Made by a program: the position numbers and the translations under genes
Assembly: GCF_028993575.1 (NCBI RefSeq)
Contig: NZ_CP118615.1
Location: 4,865,001 to 4,929,000, forward strand
Direction of reading: 5' to 3'
From: Micromonospora cathayae
Lineage (GTDB): Bacteria > Actinomycetota > Actinomycetes > Mycobacteriales > Micromonosporaceae
Length of the DNA: 64,000 nt
Notes under the pieces: generated by a model
Database searches by the model: none
Told to the model about the DNA's origin: nothing
What the model saw: the letters and a program-made list of their open reading frames with translations, nothing else
Part shown: in pieces, positions 29,228 through 56,480 of the stretch
Numbering within the stretch: the stretch's first letter is position 1
Layout of the letters: every line of letters starts with the position of its first letter

Positions 29228-30607
29228 TCACAGCGAGCCGCGCCGCCACGGGCCGGTGATCGCGAACGTGATGCCGGGGTTCTGCACGTTGACGAACAGC
29301 CAGTTGCCGTTCTTCGGTTCGAAGGTGGATCCGCACCATTCGGAACCGGAGTAGTCGCCGGCGGGCACGGTCTTGCCGGGGATGCCGCCGGCCGGGACGA
29401 CCACCTGGTTGAGGGCGAACGGGAAGATCTCCCCGTCGGTGGTGAGGCCGTGCAGGTATTCGCCGGAGCTGCCGTCCTCGCACAGCACGATGCCGCCGCG
29501 CGGGCTGACGCAGATGTTGTCGGGGTTGTTGAGCACGGCCGCGTCCGGGGAGGCGAACAGCACCCGCATCCGTTCGGTCGCCGGGTCGTACTCGAAGACC
29601 TGGCCCTGGCCGGCGGGGCCACCGCTGGTGGAGACGACGTAGACGCGGTCGTTGCCCCACCAGGCGCCTTCGAGGCGGCGGAACACGGCGCCGCCGGCGG
29701 CGATGCCCTGCTGGACACAGCTCGTCTCGCCGGGGCCGGGGTCGGGGTTGCCGACGCTGACCCAGCGGAGGCTGTCGTAGTGGGTGTCGGTGCCGTCGCC
29801 GTAGGTGGAGTAGGAGCCGCCGGTGCCGATGGCGAGCATCTGGAGGGTTCCGCCGGCGGCCAGGGTGCCGGGGGTGGTGGGCAGGTAGCGGTACAGGCCG
29901 GACGGGGTGGCGTCCTCGGTGAGGTAGACGATGCCGGTGCCGGGGTCCACGGCGACGGCTTCGTGGCTGAACCGGCCCATCCCGCGCAGCGGCCGGGGGT
30001 CGCCCTTGCCGGTGTGCGGGACTTCGAACACGTAGCCGTGGCGGGTGCCGTCGGGGCCGATCTCGGTGGTTTCCTCGCAGGTCAGCCAGGTGCCCCACGG
30101 GGTGGGTCCGCCGGCGCAGTTGCGGATGGTGCCGCCGAGGCTGGCCCAGGAGCCGGTGAACGCGCCCCGGTCGGGGTCGAAACCGACGGTGGTGGTGCCG
30201 CCGGTGGCGGCCGGGTTGTAGGCGGGGGTGGTGAACGCGCCGCTGTAGCCGCCGCGTTCGTGGTTGCGGACCAGGGCGATGGTGCCGTCGGCGCGGCGGA
30301 AGGCGGCCATGCCGTCGTGGGCGCCGGGGGTGGGCAGACCGTCGGACATCAGGTCGCCGGTCCACCCGTACGACAGGTATTCGAAGCCGCGCGGCAGGCG
30401 CAGCAGTTCCAGGCCGGTGGTGTGGTCGCGGGCCGGGTACAGCGGCCCGTAGTCGGGGCTGGCGGGCAGCTTCTTCAGGGGGGCGGCACCGGCGGTGCGG
30501 GCCCCGAGGGCGTCGAGCGGGCCGAGCGCGGTCAGCGCGGCGGCGGTCACCGAGCCGCGGAGCACGCCGCGGCGGGTGGGTCGGATCGGCTGGTCAGGTG
30601 CCGTCAC
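29228..30607 (-). CDS. PhoX-like (DUF839) Tat-exported phosphatase
   Basis: This 459-residue protein begins with a Tat signal (TRRGVLRGSVTAAALTALG). The mature part has the DUF839/PhoX beta-propeller markers GLELLRLPRGFEYLSYGW, PTPWGTWLTCEETTE, RFSHEAVAVDPGTGIVYLTED and ICVSPRGGIVLCEDG. PhoX enzymes are calcium/iron-dependent phosphatases acting outside the cytoplasm. The start is GTG 30607, with GGAGG five bases before it; earlier in-frame starts lack homology. Whether it hydrolyses phosphate esters is not certain from sequence. Confidence 0.82.
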   Translation of the reverse strand: MTAPDQPIRPTRRGVLRGSVTAAALTALGPLDALGARTAGAAPLKKLPASPDYGPLYPARDHTTGLELLRLPRGFEYLSYGWTGDLMSDGLPTPGAHDGMAAFRRADGTIALVRNHERGGYSGAFTTPAYNPAATGGTTTVGFDPDRGAFTGSWASLGGTIRNCAGGPTPWGTWLTCEETTEIGPDGTRHGYVFEVPHTGKGDPRPLRGMGRFSHEAVAVDPGTGIVYLTEDATPSGLYRYLPTTPGTLAAGGTLQMLAIGTGGSYSTYGDGTDTHYDSLRWVSVGNPDPGPGETSCVQQGIAAGGAVFRRLEGAWWGNDRVYVVSTSGGPAGQGQVFEYDPATERMRVLFASPDAAVLNNPDNICVSPRGGIVLCEDGSSGEYLHGLTTDGEIFPFALNQVVVPAGGIPGKTVPAGDYSGSEWCGSTFEPKNGNWLFVNVQNPGITFAITGPWRRGSL

Positions 30608-38383: not shown

Positions 38384-38860
38384 GTGGTGGACGCGTGGGA
38401 GGCGACGGTCGAGGCGCAGATCCGGGCCGCCGTGGACCGGGGCGAGTTCGACAACCTGCCCGGCGCGGGCCGGCCGCTGCCCGGCCGGAACCTGCCGTAC
38501 GACGAACAGTGGTGGATCAAGAGCTTCCTCGAGCGGGAGGCCATCGGCAGCGACGTGCTCCTGCCCACCCCGCTGCTGCTGCGTAAACGCGTCGAGCAGC
38601 TCCCCGACGAGGTCCGGGACCTGCCCACCGAGGCGGCCGTGCGGGCGTACGCGGGACAGCTGAACGCGCAGATCGTGGCGTGGCTGCGTACCCCCACCGG
38701 CCCCCGGGTGGTGGTCCGCCCGGTCAACGTCGACGCGGTCGTGGCGCGGTGGCGCGCCGACCGCCGACCGGCCCACCCACCCACAGCGCCCACCGCCGAT
38801 GCACCCGCCCACCGGCCGGCGCGGCGACGTCGCCGCTGGCTGCCCTGGCGTCGCCGCTGA
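38384..38860 (+). CDS. DUF1992 (DnaJ-C28-like) protein
   Basis: This is a 158-residue protein with the DUF1992 core: EATVEAQIRAAVDRGEFDNL, GAGRPLPGRNLPYDEQWW and ERE AIGSDVLLPTP in sequence. The family is found beside J-domains in eukaryotes and alone in bacteria, with unknown role. The C-terminus is a basic tail (RRRRRWLPWRRR) that may bind nucleic acid or membrane. GTG 38384 has GGGGAGG upstream. Confidence 0.82.
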   Translation: MVDAWEATVEAQIRAAVDRGEFDNLPGAGRPLPGRNLPYDEQWWIKSFLEREAIGSDVLLPTPLLLRKRVEQLPDEVRDLPTEAAVRAYAGQLNAQIVAWLRTPTGPRVVVRPVNVDAVVARWRADRRPAHPPTAPTADAPAHRPARRRRRWLPWRRR

Positions 38861-39030
38861 CCCACCGCCGGGCCGCGCGGGCCGGCGCGTCCCCGCCGGC
38901 GGCCCGCGCCCGGTCACCCGCCGCCGTCCCGGACGAACCCGACGGCGGCCCGGCCTTGACCTTGCCCCTCGGGCAACACCCAACCTGGGGCGTACCGGCC
39001 GACACCGGCCGGCACGACGAGGAGGGTGAC

Positions 39031-40092
39031 GTGGGGCTGCTGACCATCGGGGTGTTCGCCCGTACCGTGCGGCTGACACCGAAGGCGTTGCGGCTCTACG
39101 ACGACTTGGGGCTGCTCCCACCGGCGGCGGTCGACCCGGACACCGGCTACCGGCTGTACCACCCGGACCAGGTGCCCCGGGCCCGGCTGATCGGTCGGCT
39201 CCGCGCCATCGGCATGCCCCTGGCGGAGATCCGCGCGGTGTGCGGGCTGCCCCCGGCCGCCGCGGCCGAGGCGGTCGACACCTACTGGCGGCGGGTCGTC
39301 GACGACACCGCCGCCCGGGGCCGCCTCGCCACCGTCCTCGTCGACCACCTCTCCGGAAGGGACACCGCCGTGCGCGAACCCGGCATCGGTTTCCGCTACG
39401 CCACCGGCTGCGAGACCGGCCCCGTACGGGACAGCAACGAGGACGCCACGTACGCCAGCGACCGGCTGCTGGCCGTCGCCGACGGCATGCGCGGCCCCGG
39501 CGGCGCGTCGGCCGCCGCCACCGCCGTCGCCGCGCTGGCCGCCCTGGACCCGGTCGTCGCGCCCGCCGTGGACCTGCTGACCATGCTCGCCGCCGCGGTC
39601 ACCGACGCCGACCGCGCGGTACGCCGGTACGCCACCGCCGACCACCAGCCGGTCACCACCCTGACGGCGGTACGGTGCGCCGGCACGCAGGTCGCCCTGG
39701 TGCACATCGGCGACACCCGGGTCTACCTGCTGCGCGACGGCGGGCTGCACCAGCTCACCCGGGACCACACGTACGTGCAGTCGCTGGTCGACCAGGGCCG
39801 GCTCGACCCGGCCGAGGTGTCGACGCATCCGCAGCGGTCCCTGCTGGTGCGGGCCCTCGGTGCCGGCGAGCGCGTCGAGGTGGACCTGTCGGTGCGGGCC
39901 GCCCAACCGGGCGACCGGTACCTGCTGTGCTCCGACGGGCTGTCGACGGTGCTCGACCGGGCCGACCTGCACGCCGTGCTCACCGCCGCACCCGACCCGG
40001 ACCGGGCCGTGACGGACCTGATGGCCCGCGCGTACGCGGCGGGCGCCCTGGACAACATCGCCTGCGTGGTCGCCGACGTCGTCACCGACTAA
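39031..40092 (+). CDS. MerR DNA-binding domain fused to a PP2C phosphatase
   Basis: This is a 353-residue fusion. Residues 1-70 are a MerR winged helix (TIGVFARTVRLTPKALRLYD, GYRLYHPDQVPRARLIGRLR). Residues about 115-353 are a complete PP2C domain: GPVRDSNEDA and VADGMRG metal ligands, VHIGDTRVYLLRDGGLHQLT, LLCSDGLSTV and GALDNIACVV. All four metal-binding aspartates appear present, so phosphatase activity is expected. The MerR effector domain is replaced by the phosphatase. GTG 39031 has GGAGGG five bases upstream. The stop overlaps that of the convergent 40089 gene. Confidence 0.88.
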   Translation: MGLLTIGVFARTVRLTPKALRLYDDLGLLPPAAVDPDTGYRLYHPDQVPRARLIGRLRAIGMPLAEIRAVCGLPPAAAAEAVDTYWRRVVDDTAARGRLATVLVDHLSGRDTAVREPGIGFRYATGCETGPVRDSNEDATYASDRLLAVADGMRGPGGASAAATAVAALAALDPVVAPAVDLLTMLAAAVTDADRAVRRYATADHQPVTTLTAVRCAGTQVALVHIGDTRVYLLRDGGLHQLTRDHTYVQSLVDQGRLDPAEVSTHPQRSLLVRALGAGERVEVDLSVRAAQPGDRYLLCSDGLSTVLDRADLHAVLTAAPDPDRAVTDLMARAYAAGALDNIACVVADVVTD

Positions 40093-40682
40093 CCGGTGGA
40101 CGGGCCGTCCGCGTCGAGGGCGGCCCGCCACGACCACCCGGTGCGGCGGGGCCGGTCCCCGAGCGGGGCCCGGCCGGTCGACCAGAGCAGCACCGCCGCC
40201 GCCTCGCCGTCCGGGGCGTCCGGGAAGAGCCGCCGCAGCACGGCGGCGCTGGCGTCGGCCGGCAGCCGCCACGGCACCCCGAGGCCCCGGGTGATGTCGT
40301 GGGTGTGCAGCAGGATCTCGGCCACACCCATGGCCGCGAAGCCCTCCGGGTCACACGGCCCCCAGTGCCAGGCGCGGACGTCCGGGTCGGCGGTGTCGAC
40401 GGCCGTGGCCAGCAGCGTGGCGCAGGCGGTGACCACCCGGAGCACGTCGGCCGGGCCGGCGGTGTCGGGGACGGTCAGGTCGAACGGCAGGTACCCGTCG
40501 GTGGGTCGGCCGGCGAGCTGGCCGGCGTAGGCGAGCAGGTCGTGGGCGACGTGCACGGCGGTGTCCCGGCAGCTCCACTGCAGCGGCCCGGCCGGCACCG
40601 TCCAGTCGCCGTGGACCTGCGGCCGCAGCACCCGGACCAGTTCGGCCGCCGCACCCGTCACCGCCGGCCCGTCGAGCCTCAC
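40089..40682 (-). CDS. DinB/MDMPI-fold (maleylpyruvate isomerase-like) protein
   Basis: This 197-residue four-helix protein resembles mycothiol-dependent maleylpyruvate isomerase N-terminal domains. WTVPAGPLQWSCRDTAVHVA near the start and AEILLHTHDITRGLG carry the histidines that bind metal in the DinB fold. Such proteins use mycothiol as cofactor or conjugate to it. It is last in the six-gene block: its GTG start (40682) forms a GTGA overlap with the 40679 gene, which argues that it belongs to the same pathway. Confidence 0.75.
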   Translation of the reverse strand: MRLDGPAVTGAAAELVRVLRPQVHGDWTVPAGPLQWSCRDTAVHVAHDLLAYAGQLAGRPTDGYLPFDLTVPDTAGPADVLRVVTACATLLATAVDTADPDVRAWHWGPCDPEGFAAMGVAEILLHTHDITRGLGVPWRLPADASAAVLRRLFPDAPDGEAAAVLLWSTGRAPLGDRPRRTGWSWRAALDADGPSTG

Positions 40683-41395
40683 CGCGACCCCGGCGCGGTC
40701 AGGCAGGCGTACGCCCGCAACCGGTCGGGACGGTTCCGGTCTCGGTGCACCCGGACCGCGTCGGCAGCGCCCAGCGTCGCGTCGTCCAGGTCCGGCAGAT
40801 GCGTCACCACCAGCGGCTCCCCGGCCGGCAGCACCCCGGTCACAACCGCCTCCACCAGCGTGTGGTTGACGTGCACCAGGTAGTCGGCGATGGTCAGCCC
40901 GTCGGTGGCGACCGCCAGCCGCCAGGCCCGGCCGCCGGCCCCCGCCCCGCCGGGCACCACCAGCTCCGCCGGCACGGTCAACGGCCCGGCCGGGAACAGC
41001 TTCACCAGCCGACGCAGCCCGGTCACCTCGGCCGCCGGGGCCGGCCCGTACCAGGCGATCCCGGCGTCCACCCGCGCGAACCCGAACCGTTCCCGCAGGT
41101 TCGCCGGATTCCCGGCCAGGAACACGGTACGGGTGAAGGCCGCCAGCCACGCCCGCCCCTGCTCCGGGTCCAGCGACGCGGCGAACCGCGGCGCCGACCC
41201 GGCCAACGCCACCGGGTCGAACCGGTTCAGCACCACCACCGCCGTCAGGTCCACCGACGGTGCCGCCGGCCCGGCCCCGACGTGCGGGTCCCCGGCACCG
41301 GCCGGCGGGTCGAGCCAACCGTCGGCGTCGACACCGGCGCGACGCATCCGTTCCCGCAGCACCCCGGCCAGGAACTCCTGCCGTCCGTCCGTCAC
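40679..41395 (-). CDS. Protein of unknown function in the GH3/ArgRS-like cluster
   Basis: This is a 238-residue soluble protein. Features visible are VDLTAVVVLNRFDPVALAGS, TRTVFLAGNPANLRERFGF and LTIADYLVHVNHTLVEAVVT, with a mix of strands and helices and no signal peptide. I recognise no family. It is coupled by GTGA overlaps to the ArgRS-like gene upstream and the DinB-like gene downstream, so it likely has a dedicated role in this pathway. Confidence 0.65.
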   Translation of the reverse strand: MTDGRQEFLAGVLRERMRRAGVDADGWLDPPAGAGDPHVGAGPAAPSVDLTAVVVLNRFDPVALAGSAPRFAASLDPEQGRAWLAAFTRTVFLAGNPANLRERFGFARVDAGIAWYGPAPAAEVTGLRRLVKLFPAGPLTVPAELVVPGGAGAGGRAWRLAVATDGLTIADYLVHVNHTLVEAVVTGVLPAGEPLVVTHLPDLDDATLGAADAVRVHRDRNRPDRLRAYACLTAPGSR

Positions 41396-42537
41396 ACCAA
41401 CACCAGCCTCGTCAGTTCCCGTACCGGCGGCCGGCCGTGCCGGGCCAGCAGCGCCGACGTCAACCGGTACGGGTCCACGTAGTGGTGCCCGCCCATGGCC
41501 CGCCGCAGGAAACGGTCCACCTCGCCGAGCCGGGCCCGGGGCGCCGTCGCCAGCAGCCGGCCGGCCCGGGTCACCGCCGCCCGTAGCTGCTCCACCCGGA
41601 ACGACTGCTGGGTGCCCCGCCCGAGGACCGCGATGAAGTACAGCCGCAACCCGAGCCGCACCGCCGCGTCGTCGGCATCACCGTCGGCGAGGGCGTCCCG
41701 TACCGCCGACAGGGTGTACCCCTGCCAGCCGCCGTGCCGACTGGACCGCACCACCCCGTCGATCGGTACCCGGTCCACCACCTCCCGGGACACCCGCGCG
41801 CCGAGTGCGGTCAACACCCGGTCCAGCAGCAGGTAGTCCTCGGCCAGTTCCCGGTCGTACAGCAGCACCACCTCGTCGTAGCCGGCCGCCACCGGGACGA
41901 GTTCCCGCAGCGCGCAGGCCAGGTAGTTGGGCTGCCCGTCCGGGGACACGATCTGCCGCAGCGGCAACCCGAACCGGGTGGCGTCCAGGTACACCGGCCC
42001 GCCGTCGGCGCGCAGGTCCAGGCACAGCGACCGGCTGGCCAACGTGTCCACCGTCTCGGCCAGGGTCGACGCGGGCGGCTGGGCCACCCCCAGGCCCGGG
42101 TCGTGCAGGCCGAGCGCCCGGTAGTGCCCGACCCACAGGTCCACCAGGCGGGCACTGGCCGGGTGCACCCAGCCGGTCTGCTCCACCCGCCGCCGGTACG
42201 GCAGCAGCGCCCGATGGTCGGGGCGCTGCGGCTGCGCCTGGTACCGCACGTACCACTCGCCGATCTCGTCCTCGCCGAGCGTGGCGAAGTCGACCCGCGG
42301 GCCGGCCCGGTCCAGGTACTCCCAGAACCCGAGCGTCTGACCGGTCACGTTGTACGTGGTGAGGCTGTACCGCAGGTCCACGTCCGCGACCAGCGCGGTG
42401 GCCTTGTAGAGGGCGTCGACCCAGAGCAGCCCCTTGACGTGGCTGGGGGTCAACGGTTTGGTGGGGGTGACCGTCACCGGCGCGACCAGGACCCGGGGCA
42501 CCCTCCCGGTGTCCCCACCGGTGGCCGGGGCGGTCAT
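41392..42537 (-). CDS. Stand-alone class I aminoacyl-tRNA-synthetase-like ligase (ArgRS-like core)
   Basis: This is a 381-residue protein. Residues 25-46 (TPTKPLTPSHVKGLLWVDAL...) align without gaps to the ArgRS region N-P-T-G-P-L-H-V-G-H; the HIGH box reads TPSH, keeping the second His (33). Further along, PVYLDATRFGLPLRQIVSPD then GQPNYLA resemble the ArgRS 'LWLxTTxFGxxxDRVxxxxDGTxTY' segment, RSSRHGGWQGYTLSAV (264-279) is placed like the KMSKS loop, and VRLGLRLYFIAVL follows. The anticodon-binding domain is essentially missing (about 60 residues remain). The most likely role is an ATP-dependent ligase that adenylates a carboxylate without acting on a cognate tRNA, or that uses charged tRNA. 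The start is ATG 42537, and a GTGA overlap follows. Confidence 0.6.
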   Translation of the reverse strand: MTAPATGGDTGRVPRVLVAPVTVTPTKPLTPSHVKGLLWVDALYKATALVADVDLRYSLTTYNVTGQTLGFWEYLDRAGPRVDFATLGEDEIGEWYVRYQAQPQRPDHRALLPYRRRVEQTGWVHPASARLVDLWVGHYRALGLHDPGLGVAQPPASTLAETVDTLASRSLCLDLRADGGPVYLDATRFGLPLRQIVSPDGQPNYLACALRELVPVAAGYDEVVLLYDRELAEDYLLLDRVLTALGARVSREVVDRVPIDGVVRSSRHGGWQGYTLSAVRDALADGDADDAAVRLGLRLYFIAVLGRGTQQSFRVEQLRAAVTRAGRLLATAPRARLGEVDRFLRRAMGGHHYVDPYRLTSALLARHGRPPVRELTRLVLV

Positions 42538-42577
42538 CGGCCGGTGCCGGCGGTCACCCGGGGCCGCACCGGGCCGG

Positions 42578-43456
42578 TCACACCCGCCGTCCGTGGACGC
42601 AGAACACCCGCTCGACGTCGGGCACCAGGTCACGTGGCGGCACCGGGTCCCGCCACCGGCCGCCGTAGTCGGCGCCGGGTTCGCCCGGCTGCACGGCGAC
42701 CGCGTCGATGCCGTACTCGGCGAACAGCAGTTCCGGGGTGTCGCTGCCGAACAGCCACGGGCTTCCCCACGCCTCGAACACCGCCAGCAGTGGCCGCATC
42801 ACCGGTGACCGCAGCGCCTGCGCGTTGACCATGTCGCAGGCCACCCGGCTGCCGGGGGCGGTGCTGGCGGCCACGGTGGCGAGCAGTTCCCGGGCCTGCC
42901 GTTCCGGCAGGTAGTACAGCAGCCCCTCCAGCAGCCACACCGAGGCCCGCGTCGGGTCGTAGCCGGCGGCGACGAGCGCGTCGGTCCAGCCGGGGACGAG
43001 CAGGTCCGCGCCGACGGTGCGGCGGGTCACCCCCGCCGGCAGGGCCTCGTCGCCGAGCACGGCGTCCTTGAACGCCAGCACCTGCGGCCGGTCCACCTCG
43101 AAGATCTCCACCTGCGTCGGCCAGGGCAGCCGGTAGGCGCGGGTGTCCATGCCGGCCGCGCCGATGACGATCTGCGTCGGGCCGGAGTCGGCGACGGCGG
43201 TGAGCAGGAAGTCGTCGAGGAACCGGGTCCGGATGGCGTTGTAGTCGGTGGTGTTCGGCAGCGGCCGCTCCGGCGCGGGTTCGGCCCGCTTCTCCCCGCT
43301 GACCGTGTCGACCGTACCGAACAGGTCGGGGCCCAGTTCGGCGGCGAGTTTCACCGCGTACGGGTCGGCGTAGAGGCGGTCCGGTCGGGCCGTCTCCTGG
43401 GCCCGCAGCGCGGCGGTGAGCAGCGCGGTCCTCGCCACGGCGTCGAAGCCGTCCAT
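42578..43456 (-). CDS. SAM-dependent methyltransferase, TIGR00027 (LCM-like) type
   Basis: This 292-residue methyltransferase is of the leucine-carboxyl-methyltransferase-like group. It has DGFDAVARTALLTAALRAQE at the start, TTDYNAIRTRFLDDFLLTAV, the SAM-binding VIGAAGMDTRAYRLPW, and VWLLEGLLYYLPERQARELL. The group methylates carboxylates or hydroxyls of natural products. ATG 43456 has AAAGGA upstream. It lies 40 bases before the ArgRS-like gene and 62 bases after GH3. Confidence 0.85.
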   Translation of the reverse strand: MDGFDAVARTALLTAALRAQETARPDRLYADPYAVKLAAELGPDLFGTVDTVSGEKRAEPAPERPLPNTTDYNAIRTRFLDDFLLTAVADSGPTQIVIGAAGMDTRAYRLPWPTQVEIFEVDRPQVLAFKDAVLGDEALPAGVTRRTVGADLLVPGWTDALVAAGYDPTRASVWLLEGLLYYLPERQARELLATVAASTAPGSRVACDMVNAQALRSPVMRPLLAVFEAWGSPWLFGSDTPELLFAEYGIDAVAVQPGEPGADYGGRWRDPVPPRDLVPDVERVFCVHGRRV

Positions 43457-43518
43457 GCCTGTCCTTTCGCTGGCGGTCGACGGCGACGCGGGTCGCGTGC
43501 CGGTGGTGTGGCGGCCGG

Positions 43519-45180
43519 TCACCGGCCCAGCACCCGCTGCCAGCCGGCCTCGTCCCGCTGGAAGACCCGGTCCTTGACCTGGGCCGGCCGGGTGCCCTGG
43601 GCGACCCGCCACTGCCATTCGGTCAGGAACCGGTCGGCGGGCACCAGGTGCAGCACGGGCGGGTCGAGGCGACCGGCGGCCCGCGCCGTCCGGTAGCCGG
43701 CCGACACCGATCCGAGGGCGGTGTCGAGGGCCCCGGCCAGCGTCCGGGTCTCGGTGTCGCCGAACGGCCGGAACGGGGCCAGCGCGAACTCGTACCGGGG
43801 CACGTCGACGCCGGTGTCGACGGCCCGGCAGGTGGCGTTGACGACCTCCAGGCCGCCTCCGTCCAGCGCGGTCCGCAACGCCCGCACCACGTGCGACTCG
43901 CGGAGCCGTTCCCCGGCGACGTCGCTGAGGTTGCGGCGGCCGGCGTACTCGACGCGGGGCACCCCGGCGACCCGGTCCACGACCCGCACCACGTCACCGA
44001 GCGCGTACCGGTACAGCCCGCCGACGTGGGTGAACACCACGTGGTACTCCTGTCCCTCGGCCAGTTCGTCGTGCCGCAGGGTGGGGCTGTCCGGCCGGAT
44101 GTCGTCGTCGGCGGGCAGGAACTCGTACCAGGCGGCGGGCACCACCAGCGGCCCGGCGGTGGGATGCCGGTCCAGGGCGACGGCCACCGGCCCTTCGGAC
44201 GCGGCGACCGGCGCGGGCAGCACGGTGACGCCCGGCCCGAAGGCTTCCCGCAGCCGGGGCAGGTACAGCGAGGCGAGCCCGGTGGTCCAGCAGAAGATCA
44301 GCTCCAGGTTCGGCCACACGTGCGCCGGCAGCAGGGTGCCGTGGTACGCGGCGAGCCGTTCCAGCTGGGCGGCCCGTTCCCGGTCGGCCGGCCCGTACGG
44401 GTGGCCGCCGAGGGTGCCGTCGTGCAGGTCCTTGACGATGCGCGGCCACCACTGGGCGAGCTGGTGGGGCACCGCCGCGACCATCGCCGGGTTGATGCCG
44501 ATGACGCAGCGCAGGTCGGCCTGCACGGCCAGCCGCAGCCGCAGGTAGGCGCGTTCGAGGTGGTCGGCGTCGGCGGCGTGGGCCGGCAGGGTGGCCCAGG
44601 GCGCGCGGGTGCCGGGTTCGGCGGACAGGGGTTCCCCGAAGGCGGTACCGAAGTCGACCTGGCTGGCCCCGGCGTGCGGGCGGCCCGACGCGGTGGTGTC
44701 CACCGGCACCGGGTCGTGTTTGAGGTTCAGCGTCGAGTCGTCGTGGGCCAGTACGGCGGGGAAATGTTCGGCGAAGTTCGCCCACGCCGCGTAGTAAAAA
44801 GGAAAGAACACCCGTTTCATGAAGGTCCGGGTGATGGGGATCTTCTTGCTGTCGCCGGTGCTGCCGCTGCTCTTGAAGAACACCACCGGATCGTCGGCGG
44901 AGAGCACATTCTGCTCACCGGCGGCGGCGCGTTCGATCCACGGCGCCAGGGCGTCGTAGTCACGGATCGGCACCGCCGACCGAAAATCGTCGATATTCCG
45001 GATTCGCGCGAAGCCGTGTTCGACGCCGAATGCGGTGCCGGCGTTGTGGGCCAGTACGTCGGCCAGGGCCTGCTGTTGGTGTTCGGCGGCGGTGGGCAGC
45101 GCCCGGCGCAGCGCGTCCCGTTCGGCGACGACCCTATGCCGGTACTGGGTCAGCCGCGACGAGGTCGGGGTCTGGGTCAT
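43519..45180 (-). CDS. GH3-family acyl-acid amide synthetase
   Basis: This is a 553-residue ANL-superfamily-type enzyme of the GH3 family, known in plants for coupling jasmonate or auxin to amino acids via adenylates. The ATP motif is VVFFKSSGSTGDSKKIPIT, the second motif appears as PVAASEGPVA, and the third is GGLYRYALGDVVRVVD. Bacterial GH3 proteins occur in natural-product clusters. Here it probably forms an amide between an acyl acid and an amine or amino acid. ATG 45180 overlaps the preceding kinase gene by 47 bases. Confidence 0.85.
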   Translation of the reverse strand: MTQTPTSSRLTQYRHRVVAERDALRRALPTAAEHQQQALADVLAHNAGTAFGVEHGFARIRNIDDFRSAVPIRDYDALAPWIERAAAGEQNVLSADDPVVFFKSSGSTGDSKKIPITRTFMKRVFFPFYYAAWANFAEHFPAVLAHDDSTLNLKHDPVPVDTTASGRPHAGASQVDFGTAFGEPLSAEPGTRAPWATLPAHAADADHLERAYLRLRLAVQADLRCVIGINPAMVAAVPHQLAQWWPRIVKDLHDGTLGGHPYGPADRERAAQLERLAAYHGTLLPAHVWPNLELIFCWTTGLASLYLPRLREAFGPGVTVLPAPVAASEGPVAVALDRHPTAGPLVVPAAWYEFLPADDDIRPDSPTLRHDELAEGQEYHVVFTHVGGLYRYALGDVVRVVDRVAGVPRVEYAGRRNLSDVAGERLRESHVVRALRTALDGGGLEVVNATCRAVDTGVDVPRYEFALAPFRPFGDTETRTLAGALDTALGSVSAGYRTARAAGRLDPPVLHLVPADRFLTEWQWRVAQGTRPAQVKDRVFQRDEAGWQRVLGR

Positions 45181-45859
45181 TGTTCCGTCTCACAATCTGT
45201 TCCACCCGGCGGGCGATCACGTCGATGTCGGCGTCCGACTCGACGACGAAGGTCGGCAGCCCTCGGACCTCGGCGAACATCTCCCGGCGCAGGTCGGCCT
45301 GGAACCGTTCGAAGGCCTCCCGGCCGGGGCGGGCCCCGTAGTGTTCGAACCGGTTGAGGCGGTCGCCGCTGGCGGAGCGCCGCCACGCGGTCCGCACGTC
45401 GGTGTCGAGGTAGATGACCCCGCGGGGCGCCGGGAAGGACCGCCACCAGTCGAAGAGCACGTCGTTGACGAGCCCGGCGAGCCGGCACTTGGCGAGGATC
45501 TTGTAGTAGTACGAGTCGACCAGCACCGGCTCGCTCCCCGGCTGGCGCAACGCCTGGTCACGGAGGAAGACCACGGCGGTCTGCAGGACGCTGAGCACCA
45601 GGTCCGGCGAGTACCGGTCGGCCGCGCCGCGCAGCGCCTCGGGCACGATGTCGTCCCGCAGCCGGCTGATCAGCGGGAGTCCGGGGTCGAGAAGGCCGTC
45701 GTCGTAGGAGACCGCGGCCCACCCGGTGGTGTCGCTGACGGCGGTCAGGACCGAGGACTTGCCCGCGTAGTCGGGGCCGAGCAGCACCCAGAACGGGGCG
45801 TACCCGCCGACGGCGGCGGGCGGGCGTGGCGCCGGCGCGGTCGGGTCGGACGACGACAT
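45134..45859 (-). CDS. P-loop kinase, thymidylate-kinase-like
   Basis: This is a 241-residue NTPase. Walker A reads LLGPDYAGKSSVL, and the LID/core regions include VLVDSYYYKILAKCRLAG and GVIYLDTDVRTAWRRSA, as in thymidylate-kinase-like proteins. It could phosphorylate a nucleotide or a small substrate such as a hydroxy acid. It is the first gene of the block, starting at ATG 45859, and its 3' end overlaps GH3 by 47 bases. Confidence 0.78.
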   Translation of the reverse strand: MSSSDPTAPAPRPPAAVGGYAPFWVLLGPDYAGKSSVLTAVSDTTGWAAVSYDDGLLDPGLPLISRLRDDIVPEALRGAADRYSPDLVLSVLQTAVVFLRDQALRQPGSEPVLVDSYYYKILAKCRLAGLVNDVLFDWWRSFPAPRGVIYLDTDVRTAWRRSASGDRLNRFEHYGARPGREAFERFQADLRREMFAEVRGLPTFVVESDADIDVIARRVEQIVRRNNDPDPDLVAADPVPA

Positions 45860-46265: not shown

Positions 46266-46607
46266 TCAGCTGTCGGTGGCGCGTGGGGCGTACATGATGA
46301 TGGCGACGCCGACCAGGCAGATCGCGGCGCCGACGACGTCCCACCGGTCCGGGCGGAACCGGTCCACGACCATGCCCCAGGCGAGGGAGCCGGCGACGAA
46401 GACGCCGCCGTAGGCGGCCAGGATCCGCCCGAAGTTCGGGTCGGGTTGCAGGCTGGCGACGAACCCGTACGCGCCGAGCGCGACGACGCCGGCGGCGATC
46501 CACCACAGGCCGCGGTGTTCCCGCCAGCCCTGCCAGATCAGCCAGGCGCCGCCGATCTCGGCGAGCGCGGCCAGGATGAACAGCAGCAGGGAGCGGACGA
46601 CGGTCAC
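46266..46607 (-). CDS. YnfA/UPF0060 family membrane protein
   Basis: This 113-residue protein has four hydrophobic helices and family motifs ([40 protein letters not shown]). It resembles small multidrug-resistance exporters in topology, though its activity is uncertain. GTG 46607 is the start giving the usual length. Confidence 0.87.
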
Positions 46608-46996
46608 GTCCGGGACCGTACCCGGACGTGACCGTCGCCAGTACGCACGGGTGGCCCGTCGTCGCCCAGCAAGGCGGCCCTGGGCGGGCCGCGCATGCCG
46701 TGCGCCGTCGACGCCGCCGACCCGTGATACCGGTACCGCACCCACCTCGACGACCGGCGCGCCTCCACCTGCCAGCGGGAGATCCTGGTGGCGCACGCCG
46801 GTCCGGTCGACGGGTCAGCTTCTCCGCCACCGACACGTTCGGCCACGTCGTGCCGTCGGGGCCGCCGGCGGAGACCCTGGACGTGGTGCGCCGCGCGGAA
46901 CGGGCCAGAGCCCCGGAGCAGGGGAGCCGGCAAGAAACGTGTCACCAGCCGGGAACGAGAGCTGGCCGTCGAGTCCTGACGCGTGCCGACGCCTGT
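46608..46996. other. Gap without a convincing gene
   Basis: A 389-base gap between ynfA and the response-regulator gene. Plus-strand frames near 46628-46985 contain pieces such as SATDTFGHVVPSGPP that look faintly coding but shift frame and have no ribosome site. I see no supported gene. Confidence 0.5.
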
Positions 46997-47602
46997 TCAG
47001 ATCCAGCCGTTCGCCCGGGCTCGGTGCGCGGCCTCGATCCGGTTCCGTGTGCCGGTCTTGCCGATCGCCGCTGACAGGTAGTTGCGGACTGTGCTTTCCG
47101 ACAGGTGTAGCCGCGCGGCGATGTCCGCGACTGTCGCGCCGTCCACGGCTGCGACCAGAGCCTCCCGCTCCCGGTCGGTGAGCGGATTCGGTCCCGCTGA
47201 CAACGCTGCCGCTGCGAGCGCCGGGTCGATCACCCGCTCGCCCGCGAGCGCTCGCCGTACGGCTGCCGCCAACTGCTCGACCGGCCCGTCCTTGACGAGG
47301 AATCCGGCCGCGCCGGCTTCCATCGCCCGGCGCAGGTAGCCGGGCCGGCCGAAGGTGGTCAGGATGAGGACTCGGCAGCCGGGTAGATCCTCCCGCAGTT
47401 GCGCCGCGACGTCGAGTCCGTTGCCGTCGGGCATCTCGATGTCGAGCAGGGCCACGTCTGGACGTGTGTCCACGGCGGCCCGCAGTGCTTCGGCCGCGGT
47501 GCCGGCCTGGGCGATCACGTCGATGTCCGGCTCGAGGTTCAGCAGCAGGGCGAGGGCGCCGCGCATCATGCCTTGGTCCTCGGCGAGCAGCAGCCGGATC
47601 AT
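46997..47602 (-). CDS. NarL/LuxR-family response regulator
   Basis: This is a 201-residue regulator. The receiver domain has the acidic pair after IRLLLAED, the phosphoacceptor in VALLDIEMPDG and the Lys in FLVKDG. A LuxR helix-turn-helix follows (LTDREREALVAAVDGATVAD, LHLSESTVRNYLSAA). An ATGA overlap couples it to the histidine kinase. It likely controls the ABC exporter genes just upstream in the same operon. Confidence 0.9.
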   Translation of the reverse strand: MIRLLLAEDQGMMRGALALLLNLEPDIDVIAQAGTAAEALRAAVDTRPDVALLDIEMPDGNGLDVAAQLREDLPGCRVLILTTFGRPGYLRRAMEAGAAGFLVKDGPVEQLAAAVRRALAGERVIDPALAAAALSAGPNPLTDREREALVAAVDGATVADIAARLHLSESTVRNYLSAAIGKTGTRNRIEAAHRARANGWI

Positions 47603-48705
47603 GCGGTCACCATCGCGGGCAGGTGTGCGGTCAGTTCGATCCCGCCGTTGGGCATCGGGCCGACGTGCAGCGTGCCTCCGGCCTGGTGGACTCGTTCGAC
47701 GAGACCGCGCAGCCCGTTGCCGGGTGGAGCGTGTCGACCTACGCCGTTGTCGCGGACGGTGAGTGTCGCCCCGCCGGTGCCGGAGCTCACCACGATGTCG
47801 CAGCGGGTGGCTGCGCTGTGCCGCATCACGTTCGTCACCGCCTCGCGCAGCACCCAACGGAACACCTCGTCGGCCTGCACGCCGAGTGGGGGCCCGGTCT
47901 CGTCGAGTGTGACCTGGACGCCGATGTCGGTCAGGACGGTTCGGGCGTTGTCCAGCTCGCGGGCGAAGCTGTGCTCGCGGTAGCCGGTGACGGCTTCGCG
48001 GACCTCGGTCAGCGCGGTACGGCCGATCCGTTCGATGTCGGCCGCCTCCCTCGCGGCGCGTTCGTGGTCGGCGGGGACGAGGCGGCGGACCACCTCGGCC
48101 TTGACCACGATCAGGGACAGGGTGTGGCCGAGTAGGTCGTGCAGGTCCTGAGCGAACCGTAGGCGTTCCCGCTCGACAACGGTGCGGGCGAGTTCCTGCT
48201 GTGTGCGGCGTAGTTCCTCGACGAGCCGGACGAACCGCACGAAGGCGATGGTGGACGCGCCGGCCAGCCCGGTGATCAGGGCGATCGGGGTGGTGTCGGC
48301 GGCTGGCAGGGAGTGCACGGAGCCGATCACGAGGATGGCGGCGATGCTGCCGCCGACCCAGGCGAATCCGGCTGCCGGGCGGACGAGACCCAGCGCGCCG
48401 GCCGAGCATACGAACAGGAGGAGGGTGAGCCAGCTGCCGCGCCCGGCGGCGTAGGCGGCGGCCAGCCCGGTACCGAGCAGCGCGAGGACGGCCAGCCCCG
48501 CATGGTGCACGACGGGACGGACCGGCAGGTGCACCACAGGCACCGCCACCAGGGTCATGTAGAGCAGTACGAAGACGATCAACCCGGTGGCGGCCACCGG
48601 CCGGTGCGTCACCGCGGCGGCTACGGGCAGCAGGAACCACAGCCACGCCGTGTGCGCGACCAGGAGCGCGACCCCGCGCCGCCGGGTATGCCGGTCGCCG
48701 GACAT
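47599..48705 (-). CDS. NarL-type sensor histidine kinase
   Basis: This is a 368-residue DesK/NarX-like kinase. An N-terminal membrane domain of about six helices (residues 10-165) precedes the HisKA_3 box with phosphoacceptor in RLRFAQDLHDLLGHTLSLI and a catalytic HATPase domain (VLREAVTNVMRHSAA, TVRDNGVG). The start is ATG 48705. It ends in an ATGA overlap with the response regulator gene. Confidence 0.9.
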   Translation of the reverse strand: MSGDRHTRRRGVALLVAHTAWLWFLLPVAAAVTHRPVAATGLIVFVLLYMTLVAVPVVHLPVRPVVHHAGLAVLALLGTGLAAAYAAGRGSWLTLLLFVCSAGALGLVRPAAGFAWVGGSIAAILVIGSVHSLPAADTTPIALITGLAGASTIAFVRFVRLVEELRRTQQELARTVVERERLRFAQDLHDLLGHTLSLIVVKAEVVRRLVPADHERAAREAADIERIGRTALTEVREAVTGYREHSFARELDNARTVLTDIGVQVTLDETGPPLGVQADEVFRWVLREAVTNVMRHSAATRCDIVVSSGTGGATLTVRDNGVGRHAPPGNGLRGLVERVHQAGGTLHVGPMPNGGIELTAHLPAMVTA

Positions 48706-48725
48706 GATCGCCACCGTATCCGCTG

Positions 48726-49454
48726 TCAGCGGCGCGCTGTCGAACGCCGGTACGCCCACGCCGCGACGAGGGCGAACCCTGCGGTCCAGGCGGCCAGGAC
48801 GGCCAGGCCCGATCCGGTGGGCGGGTGCCCGGCTGCGGAGCGCCAGCCGAGCTCGGCGTACCGGTAGGTCGGCAGCGCGTGCGCGAGGCTCCGCAGACCT
48901 TGCGGGAAGTAGGCGGCGGGTGCGAGCAGTCCGCCGAGCACGGACAGCGCGAGGAAGACCAGGAAGTTGACCGGCACGGCCATCTGCGGGGACAGTCCGT
49001 AGCCGATGGCGAGGCCGAGCAGCGCGAACGGCGCCGTGCCGGCCCACATGAGCAGCAGCAGCGCGACCCACCGGCCAGTCGACAGTTCGACGTGATGCTG
49101 GATGGCCGCGGCCGCGCCGACCGCGATCACCGGTGGGATCGCGGTGAGGCTGCTGACGAGGGCTTTCACGGCGACGACCCGCCCGGCCGGCAGCGGGGTG
49201 GTCCGGAGCTGGTGCAGCCAGCCCGCCGCGCGTTCCTGGGAGACCGCTGATCCGACCATCAGGACGCCCGCGACAGCGCCGTACCCGGCCAGGCCGATCA
49301 TGACGGCGACCGGTGCGGCCAGTCCTTCGAGGCGGTCACCTGCGGACCAAGCCGAGAAGATCAGGTACGTGGCTACCGGCCCGATGATCGAGAAGAACAT
49401 CAGCCGGGGGTCCCGCACGAGGCGGCGCAGTTCGAATCGTAGGTAGGCGCGCAT
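48726..49454 (-). CDS. ABC-2 type permease
   Basis: This 242-residue permease has six hydrophobic segments: YLRFELRRLVRDPRLMFFSI at the start, then SQERAAGWLHQLRTTPLPAG as a cytoplasmic loop, and FLALSVLGGLLAPAAYFPQG. It forms an exporter with the ATPase encoded upstream (1-base overlap). The downstream kinase is 20 bases away, so all four genes form one operon. Confidence 0.88.
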   Translation of the reverse strand: MRAYLRFELRRLVRDPRLMFFSIIGPVATYLIFSAWSAGDRLEGLAAPVAVMIGLAGYGAVAGVLMVGSAVSQERAAGWLHQLRTTPLPAGRVVAVKALVSSLTAIPPVIAVGAAAAIQHHVELSTGRWVALLLLMWAGTAPFALLGLAIGYGLSPQMAVPVNFLVFLALSVLGGLLAPAAYFPQGLRSLAHALPTYRYAELGWRSAAGHPPTGSGLAVLAAWTAGFALVAAWAYRRSTARR

Positions 49455-50194
49455 CAGTGCTCCGTTTCGGTGGCGACGGACGATTCGGTGAGAGCGAGGA
49501 ACGCCCGGTCCAGGGAGACGTCGTCGCGTACGCCGGCTGTCGCGCGGATCTGCGCGGGTGTCCCGTCGGCCACGATCCGCCCCGCGGCGAGGACCACGAT
49601 CCTGTCGGCGTACTCGTCGGCCTCGGGTAGCTGGTGGGTGCTGAACACGACGGTTCTGCCGTCGGCTGCATACGAGCGGATGGCGGTCCAGAACGCCTGC
49701 CGTGCCGCGACGTCCATGGCGGCGGTTGGCTCGTCGAGGATCAGCAGATCGGGGTCGCCGGCGAGGGCGAACGCGAAGCGGGCCCGCTGTGCTTCGCCGC
49801 CGGACAGTTTGTCGAGGCGTCGGCGGGCGAGTCCGGTCAGGCCCGCCGCGGTCAGGATCCGGTCGGTGTCCAGTGGGTGGGGGTACAGGGCTCGGGCCAG
49901 TTCGATCACGTCACGGACGGTGGCCCCGGGCACGAACGCGCCGTCCTGGAGCATCGCGCCGATTCGGCCGGCTCGGATCGCCTCGGCGGGGGTGCCGCCG
50001 AACAGCGTCGCCGTTCCCGTGTCCGGTGGGGCGAGACCCAGCATCATCGACATCGCTGTGGTCTTGCCCGCGCCGTTCGGGCCGAGCATGGCGACCACGC
50101 TGCCCCGCTCGACCGTCAGGTGGAGGTCGTCGACGGCTCGGACGGAACCGAACCTCCTGCTGATCCCGGTGAGGCGTACCGCCATGTCGTCCAT
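49454..50194 (-). CDS. ABC transporter ATP-binding protein (exporter)
   Basis: This 246-residue ATPase has Walker A (GPNGAGKTTAMSMMLG), the signature KLSGGEAQRARFAFALAG, Walker B (LLILDEPTAAMD) and an H-loop (VVFSTHQLPEADEYAD), typical of ABC-2 drug or peptide exporters. ATG 50194 was chosen; upstream frame is not conserved. It is the first gene of the ABC/two-component operon. Confidence 0.9.
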   Translation of the reverse strand: MDDMAVRLTGISRRFGSVRAVDDLHLTVERGSVVAMLGPNGAGKTTAMSMMLGLAPPDTGTATLFGGTPAEAIRAGRIGAMLQDGAFVPGATVRDVIELARALYPHPLDTDRILTAAGLTGLARRRLDKLSGGEAQRARFAFALAGDPDLLILDEPTAAMDVAARQAFWTAIRSYAADGRTVVFSTHQLPEADEYADRIVVLAAGRIVADGTPAQIRATAGVRDDVSLDRAFLALTESSVATETEH

Positions 50195-50690
50195 GACGAT
50201 CACGCTATGAAACCGCTGGTCACGCGAGCAGAGCCGCGAATACGCGGTCCGCCGTGACAAATGTCCTTTGGGAACAGGTCGGTGAGCGACGTGGACCGGG
50301 ACCACGGGCGGGGGCGGCTCGGATGCCGACGGATCTTCGCCGAGAAGCGGTCCGGCCGCGACACCGACCGCGACCGTCCACGTGCCTGACACACCTCGCC
50401 CGGATTACCTAATTACCGGTAACGACAATCCGATAATCCGGTCGGACAAAAGGGGCATAGGGTCTGCACATCATAATGTCAGTTAAGGTGCGTAAGGATT
50501 TACGCTGGTGCACAGCGTGCCTTGCTGCCCTGGTCGCGCGGGCGCGCACCGAGCCGGCCGCGCTTGCCGGCCGCCGACGTAGGTAGCGAGGCTTCGCCGG
50601 CTCTGGAGGAGGACGGCTACTTCTCGGACGCCAGTGGTGCGGGGCGTGGCCACAGGTACCCACGGGCCCGTGGGCGACAGTTGATCAGCT
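50195..50690. promoter_or_regulatory. Intergenic region with nested inverted repeats
   Basis: This region lies upstream of the ABC exporter/two-component operon. An A+T-rich part contains TTACCGGTAA (50413-50422) nested between CGGATTA (50401-50407) and TAATCCG (50434-50440), a layout that could be an operator for the NarL-type regulator. Near 50660 CCCACGGGCCCGTGGG is another palindrome. No gene is supported here. Confidence 0.35.
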
Positions 50691-55840: not shown

Positions 55841-56480
55841 TCAGTGGCCGATGCTGTCCAGTTCGGTCATGTCCTGGGCGGACAGGGACAGTCCGGCGCC
55901 TGCGGTGTTCTCGCGCAGGTGGGCGACGGACGAGGTGCCCGGGATGAGCAGAATGTTCGGCGAGCGCCGCAGCAGCCAGGCCAACGCGACCGACATCGGC
56001 GTCGCCGCCAGCCGCTCCGCGACCCGCGAGAGGGTCTGCGACTGCAGGGGCGTGAACCCGCCCAGGGGGAAGAACGGCACGTAGGCGATGCCGTCGGCGG
56101 CGAGCTGGTCGACGAGGTCGTCGTCGTGGCGGTGGGCGAGGTTGTACATGTTCTGCACGCACACGATCGGCGCGGTCCGGCGCGCTTCGGCAACCTGCTC
56201 CGCGGTGACGTTGCTGACCCCGATGTGGCGGACCAGGCCCTCCCGCTGAAGGTCGACGAGCGTCTCGAGCGCCTCGGTGACCGGGTCGGGCCGGGGGCCC
56301 TGGGCGTCGCCCATCCGCAGGTTGACCAGGTCGAGGGTCGGGACGCCGAGGGAGTCGAGGTTCTCGTGGACCTGCCTACGCAGGTCGTCGGGACGCCGCG
56401 CCACCGGCCAGCCGCCCCGCGTGTCGCGGGTGGCGCCCACCTTGGTGGCGATGACCAGCGACGAGAGGACGTGATCATCG
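55841..56480 (-). pseudogene. Aldo/keto reductase, N-terminally truncated
   Basis: The frame encodes the last two thirds of an aldo/keto reductase: SSLVIATKVGATRDTRGGWP (strand beta-3 onward), DLVNLRMGDAQGP, VRHIGVSNVTAEQV, and ALAWLLRRSPNILLIPGTSS. The first 50-60 residues, including the catalytic Asp/Tyr region, are missing, and no suitable start codon lies before the homology. The break falls just upstream of the HxlR promoter, so a deletion likely removed its 5' end. Confidence 0.75.

Follow-up and report, generated by a model that had tools for sequence, protein, structure and literature searches.

The window analysed here, 64,000 nucleotides of the single 7.2-Mb contig that makes up the Micromonospora cathayae genome, carries a block of six minus-strand genes at positions 40089–45859. 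The first gene (45134–45859) encodes Kin, a TMPK-like P-loop kinase of 241 residues, and is followed by the genes for a GH3 acyl-adenylate amide synthetase of 553 residues (43519–45180), for MT, an LCM/TIGR00027 SAM-dependent methyltransferase of 292 residues (42578–43456), and for ARS, a putative ArgRS-derived acid-activating enzyme of 381 residues (41392–42537); all four start with ATG. The last two genes start with GTG and encode a 238-residue DUF6182 protein (PF19680, 216.9 bits; 40679–41395) and a 197-residue MDMPI_N/DinB-like protein (40089–40682). The coordinates and frames given by the first-pass annotation were exact on recheck, as were the 47-base overlap of the kinase and GH3 genes, the gaps of 62 and 40 bases, and the two GTGA overlaps that join the ARS, DUF6182 and MDMPI-like genes. 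Its gene identities also held, except that the protein it had listed as unknown belongs to the named family DUF6182. No sigma-70-like promoter was found between positions 40000 and 46300 of the window, and Rfam gave no match between 38000 and 50500.

The GH3 protein matches PF03321 (162 bits), PF23571 (59 bits) and PF23572 (29.9 bits), each above the cut-off of 23.6, and its best ten PDB sequence matches are plant GH3 enzymes. Residues G106, T108, G109, K112, E329, G330, R391 and D396 are invariant among 25 sequences including that of the window, and the motif residues of the family are thereby kept. The three domains and the motif residues mark the protein as an acyl-acid amide synthetase, for which amide formation is predicted. 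It shares the GH3 domains and the acyl-adenylate amide ligase type with OlsH, but was rejected as an OlsH, scoring 72.4 bits with NF052613, far below the cut-off of 620. In the kinase, G28, D30, G33, K34, D53, D101, D115 and S116 are invariant among 24 sequences including the window, and the Walker A glycine and lysine are kept in all of them. An assignment as thymidylate kinase was not supported: the TMPK profile PF02223 matched weakly, with E 0.18 and 11.9 bits, where the cut-off is 27. The methyltransferase matches PF04072 (166 bits) and TIGR00027 (222.6 bits, cut-off 93.55), and the MDMPI-like protein matches MDMPI_N (PF11716) with 28.5 bits against a cut-off of 24.2. The enzymatic activities ascribed here to GH3, the kinase and ARS are predictions from their motifs.

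ARS is a relative of ArgRS both by fold and by a co-linear profile, in agreement with the kinship proposed in the first-pass annotation; searches of Pfam and NCBIfam at E 1 found nothing for it. The ARS profile found nothing in the uncropped alignments of two normal ArgRS sets (Prob 0.1), whereas it reached Prob 80.9 with the uncropped alignment of two divergent ArgRS-like sequences. With the ArgRS alignments cropped, ARS matched 21 ArgRS sequences with Prob 26–27 and E 7e-4, 7 of 28 frames having been dropped for an unfit HxGH pattern; the values were Prob 80–87 against the two divergent sequences alone and 88–93 against both sets joined. Among PDB sequences, the ARS HMM retrieved only 2zue (E 1.4). 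A separate ArgRS gene lies elsewhere in the host genome (PF00750 above the cut-off), and ARS is therefore not the housekeeping copy.

In all 76 ARS sequences compared, the second histidine of the HIGH motif is kept and the first is gone, the HxGH of ArgRS being mostly TPSH in ARS. K27, H33, K35, R267 and G269 are invariant in the same 76. The first-pass annotation had named catalytically dead GH3 and ARS proteins as fatal to its pathway idea; GH3 keeps its motif residues and ARS its invariant set, but the activity of ARS is uncertain because the first histidine is lost throughout. Two further positions separate ARS from ArgRS: the invariant Asn six residues before HxGH is replaced by Thr or Ser, and the invariant Asp of YxxxD by Ala, Thr, Val or Met, in 76 of 76 sequences. 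Both residues occur in 21 of 21 members of our ArgRS reference set, which comprises the 21 of 28 frames picked by the HxGH pattern, and we take them to bind arginine. Since both are replaced, arginine is an unlikely substrate of ARS. Unlike ArgRS, moreover, ARS lacks the N-terminal tRNA-binding domain, as the model aligns only from about ArgRS residue 111 (6ao8) and no Pfam match was obtained. Its C-terminal helices align to the end of ArgRS, although ARS is shorter and the anticodon-binding domain gave no Pfam match. As a separate observation, the open frames at L083 (656 aa) and L089 (830 aa) encode ArgRS-like proteins of actinomycetes that are divergent and carry CPNANKPLHVGH motifs. These proteins stand apart from normal ArgRS, and their match to the ARS profile is the closer one.

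In the DUF6182 protein, residues 48–134 adopt a PTH2-like fold, and an additional C-terminal domain, absent from PTH2, carries the invariant residues H178, E182 and R215; fold comparison of this domain gave no clear fold. The likeness to PTH2 lies in the fold: none of 72 DUF6182 members matched Pfam PTH2, and a profile comparison with actinomycete PTH2 (hhalign; sequences from 17 of 19 loci, two having been dropped for a failed frame) was not significant at P 0.083, the real run being the best of 13 (one real, one reversed and 11 shuffled). Nothing in the host genome itself matched PTH2 at an E-value of 0.001 or below. The invariant motif W-x4-T-x-T-x-F-x-x-G-x-P at residues 83–97 also fits the mitoribosomal protein mL65/MRPS30, which accounts for seven of the nine PDB sequence rows for the motif (best E 0.0069), all within one protein family and over a short stretch.

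To follow the genes across actinomycetes, we read 33 loci found with ARS as bait, namely the window, L018, the plasmid locus L073 and 30 further stretches. L017 (the same match as L019), L029 (a 48-residue fragment) and the second copy in G721 were left out, as were the weak matches in G085 and G124 (E 7e-4 and 4e-4); L028, L069 and L072 were kept though weak. The order kinase–GH3–MT–ARS–DUF6182 on one strand occurs at 17 of the 33 loci, including the window, and these are spread over three actinomycete families (f1, f20 and f21). All five genes are present at 18 loci. Because this arrangement recurs, the block is not a product of chance, and the genes being conserved together, the pathway idea does not founder on a lack of conservation. 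On the ARS strand, DUF6182 was found at 30 loci, GH3 at 25, the kinase at 24 and MT at 19; at L026 (G184), DUF6182 lies about 21 kb off, beyond the stretch read. Thus, ARS and DUF6182 are a nearly constant pair and form the core of the cassette. The MDMPI-like gene, on the other hand, occurs at the window alone (1/33). The co-occurrence foreseen in the first-pass annotation therefore extends to five of its six genes; the MDMPI-like gene is a local addition that is not supported as a pathway member, and the idea of mycothiol use is accordingly not supported either. With that gene removed and DUF6182 placed at the core, the pathway reading, supported in part, is mostly right. Since GH3 is absent from 8 and MT from 14 of the 33 loci, the chemistry is not one fixed pathway.

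The cassette is sporadic. At E 0.001, ARS was found in 12 of 200 genomes of the host's own family, of which nine matches are strong (E under 1e-80), two are marginal and one, in G031, is partial (E 3.9e-19, in two pieces) and without DUF6182. The corresponding counts were 16 of 249 in the family of G553, 3 of 35 in that of G360 and 6 of 394 in a class-wide draw that included the host genome. Over the 200 own-family genomes, the DUF6182 model matched exactly the nine strong-ARS genomes, and the kinase was found in seven of these nine plus one weak outsider (G118, E 6.5e-5). DUF6182 was not found in any of 14 named control genomes. A protein search with ARS scored 7992 candidates, of which 600 were relatives with an E-value of 0.001 or below, and those with organism names among the 120 matches listed are from actinomycetes. 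Distance correlations among the five genes (0.61–0.87 over 18 loci) lack a housekeeping control and carry no weight.

Neighbouring genes, whose presence was assessed by tblastn over the 33 loci with domain scans on representatives, divide the loci into types. Type A has the five genes; at nine loci an FAD monooxygenase and a LysR-substrate-binding protein accompany them, and six of these nine (L022, L055, L056, L058, L059 and L063) carry a hydrolase and a second methyltransferase as well. In type B (L024, L027, L066 and L073), an HMG-CoA reductase and another TMPK-like kinase are present; L027 has no GH3 match and, as read by eye, adjoins polyketide-synthase-like genes. In L073, Pfam places the HMG-CoA reductase (349.5 bits) and an APH kinase domain (39.8 bits) in one fused protein. 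At this ARS–DUF6182–GH3 locus (L073:15157–18721), the HMG-CoA reductase–APH fusion and the TMPK-like kinase resemble the reduce–phosphorylate–phosphorylate logic of mevalonate metabolism. Type C (L025, L067 and L068) has the order kinase–DUF6182–x–ARS with AfsA-, FabH-, ketosynthase- and PPDK-like genes. The butyrolactone-synthase-type (AfsA) gene occurs at three loci, and that of L067 narrowly exceeds the ScbA/BarX cut-off (200.5 against 200). L026 also has a ketosynthase-like gene. L065 has ARS–DUF6182–GH3 without any of these neighbours. We consider it very unlikely that the block is an immunity, regulatory or otherwise non-biosynthetic operon. The LysR substrate-binding domain protein at nine loci would suit such a role, with no HTH match in the one scanned, but the GH3, methyltransferase, monooxygenase, HMG-CoA reductase, butyrolactone-synthase and ketosynthase-like neighbours speak against it, and none of the six window proteins matched the anti-phage models of PADLOC at E 0.1.

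One form of the cassette has been described before. In Streptomyces sp. CB02414, the rubiginone cluster contains a nine-ORF insert, rubM2–rubP4, to which the available text of the report assigns no function and for which it suggests an insertion (PMC8487521). The published pathway, as far as that text goes, gives the insert no step, and antiSMASH placed the counterpart in S. hundungensis (DWB77_01891–01899) in no recognisable cluster (PMC8487521). The insert reads methyltransferase, hydrolase, LysR-type protein, 254 aa (DUF6182), 373 aa (ARS), oxidoreductase, methyltransferase, GH3 and 209 aa (kinase) (PMC8487521). It shares gene order and similar protein sizes with our fullest loci, the six that have all nine genes, a likeness judged by order, size and annotation alone; the window cassette lacks four of the nine. 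The first-pass annotation knew of no described cluster with this combination; the insert shows that the combination is not wholly without precedent. The word 'arginyl' is absent from the available text of that paper (PMC8487521), which, among the open-access papers listed in a survey judged by titles and starts of abstracts, was the only one with the cassette. This survey gave no Streptomyces cluster combining ArgRS and GH3, no function or ArgRS link for the cassette and no mention of DUF6182. Natural-product enzymes derived from aminoacyl-tRNA synthetases are known, such as SbzA and AcmF, but these are IleRS- and AlaRS-like, whereas ARS is ArgRS-type; the available main text of the review that covers them uses none of the words ArgRS, arginyl and GH3 (PMC12945691). 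An ArgRS-derived enzyme of this kind that has a GH3 ligase and a protein of PTH2-like fold as partners did not turn up in our survey and is not known to us.

In one of the genomes, G721, two equal-scoring ARS copies (L039 and L051; C1:71510–72604 and 8710675–8711769) are present on a contig of 8,783,278 bases. Their positions at the two chromosome ends mirror each other exactly, like those of genes within terminal inverted repeats. Another ARS locus, L073, is carried by a linear Streptomyces plasmid of 1.04 Mb. The mirrored copies and the plasmid locus suit a mobile accessory element. On balance, we lean slightly towards a mobile, sporadic specialised-metabolite cassette of actinomycetes, with two adenylate-forming enzymes and with ARS and DUF6182 at its core. 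ARS and the GH3-type ligase probably build a small molecule jointly; that a small molecule is made at all is an inference. In such a cassette, ARS would form the adenylate of an acid, either a carboxylic acid or an amino acid that is not arginine. DUF6182 would accept the acyl group, either off this adenylate or off the end of a tRNA, and pass it on to a small acceptor. The kinase would phosphorylate the acceptor or an intermediate, GH3 would activate a second acid as adenylate and close the amide, and the methyltransferase would cap a carboxylate or hydroxyl, with the FAD monooxygenase and hydrolase contributed at other loci.

How the adenylate is used could take two forms. In mycothiol synthesis, MshC, which is CysRS-type and not ArgRS-type, directly couples a small amine with the acid that it has adenylated. 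ARS might likewise join its acid straight to a small amine, free of tRNA, with DUF6182 as a structural or hydrolytic helper, which we regard as a real possibility though short of likely. That ARS instead charges a non-arginine acid onto tRNA, from which DUF6182 moves it on to the acceptor of the pathway, seems rather doubtful to us. The ArgRS ancestry and the nearly constant partner of PTH2-like fold favour this transfer, and tRNA-dependent natural-product enzymes exist, as the available text of a review documents (PMC12945691). However, ARS lacks the N-terminal tRNA-binding domain, the sequence kinship of DUF6182 and PTH2 is not significant, and a scan of 31 loci, 30 of them distinct, gave three tRNA genes, none of them among those of the cassette. 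A bolder version, in which DUF6182 would be a PTH2-fold hydrolase turned acyltransferase with a new H178/E182/R215 active site, paired with a tRNA-charging ARS and shared by GH3-, HMG-CoA-reductase- and butyrolactone-synthase-type pathways, is unlikely. If the pair uses tRNA, a new enzyme fold would be added to tRNA-dependent biosynthesis; if not, ARS would be an independent case of an aminoacyl-tRNA synthetase turned small-molecule ligase. Either way, ARS and DUF6182, two widespread uncharacterised actinomycete families, now have a common genomic setting and a role that can be tested, and the cassette points to new metabolites in Streptomyces and its relatives.

Comparison of six same-genus loci with window positions 30001–56000 (blastn, E 1e-20, pieces of more than 150 bases) revealed neither synteny nor an empty site, so that the borders of the cassette cannot be set from these loci. 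Five of them have only a MerR–PP2C gene in common with the window, apart from a 160-base piece at 55841 in one of the five; for the sixth, the YnfA region is the only shared part. The MerR–PP2C gene (38680–40092) encodes a MerR-type HTH fused to a PP2C phosphatase, is convergent to the cassette and overlaps the stop of the MDMPI-like gene with its own. It is present nearly full-length at at least 60% identity in 21 of 41 same-genus genomes, the host included, and partially in G817. On the cassette's own strand and upstream of it, genes for a YnfA-type protein, a LuxR-type response regulator, a histidine kinase and an ABC-2 transporter occupy 46266–50392; these genes may serve in export or may be unrelated.
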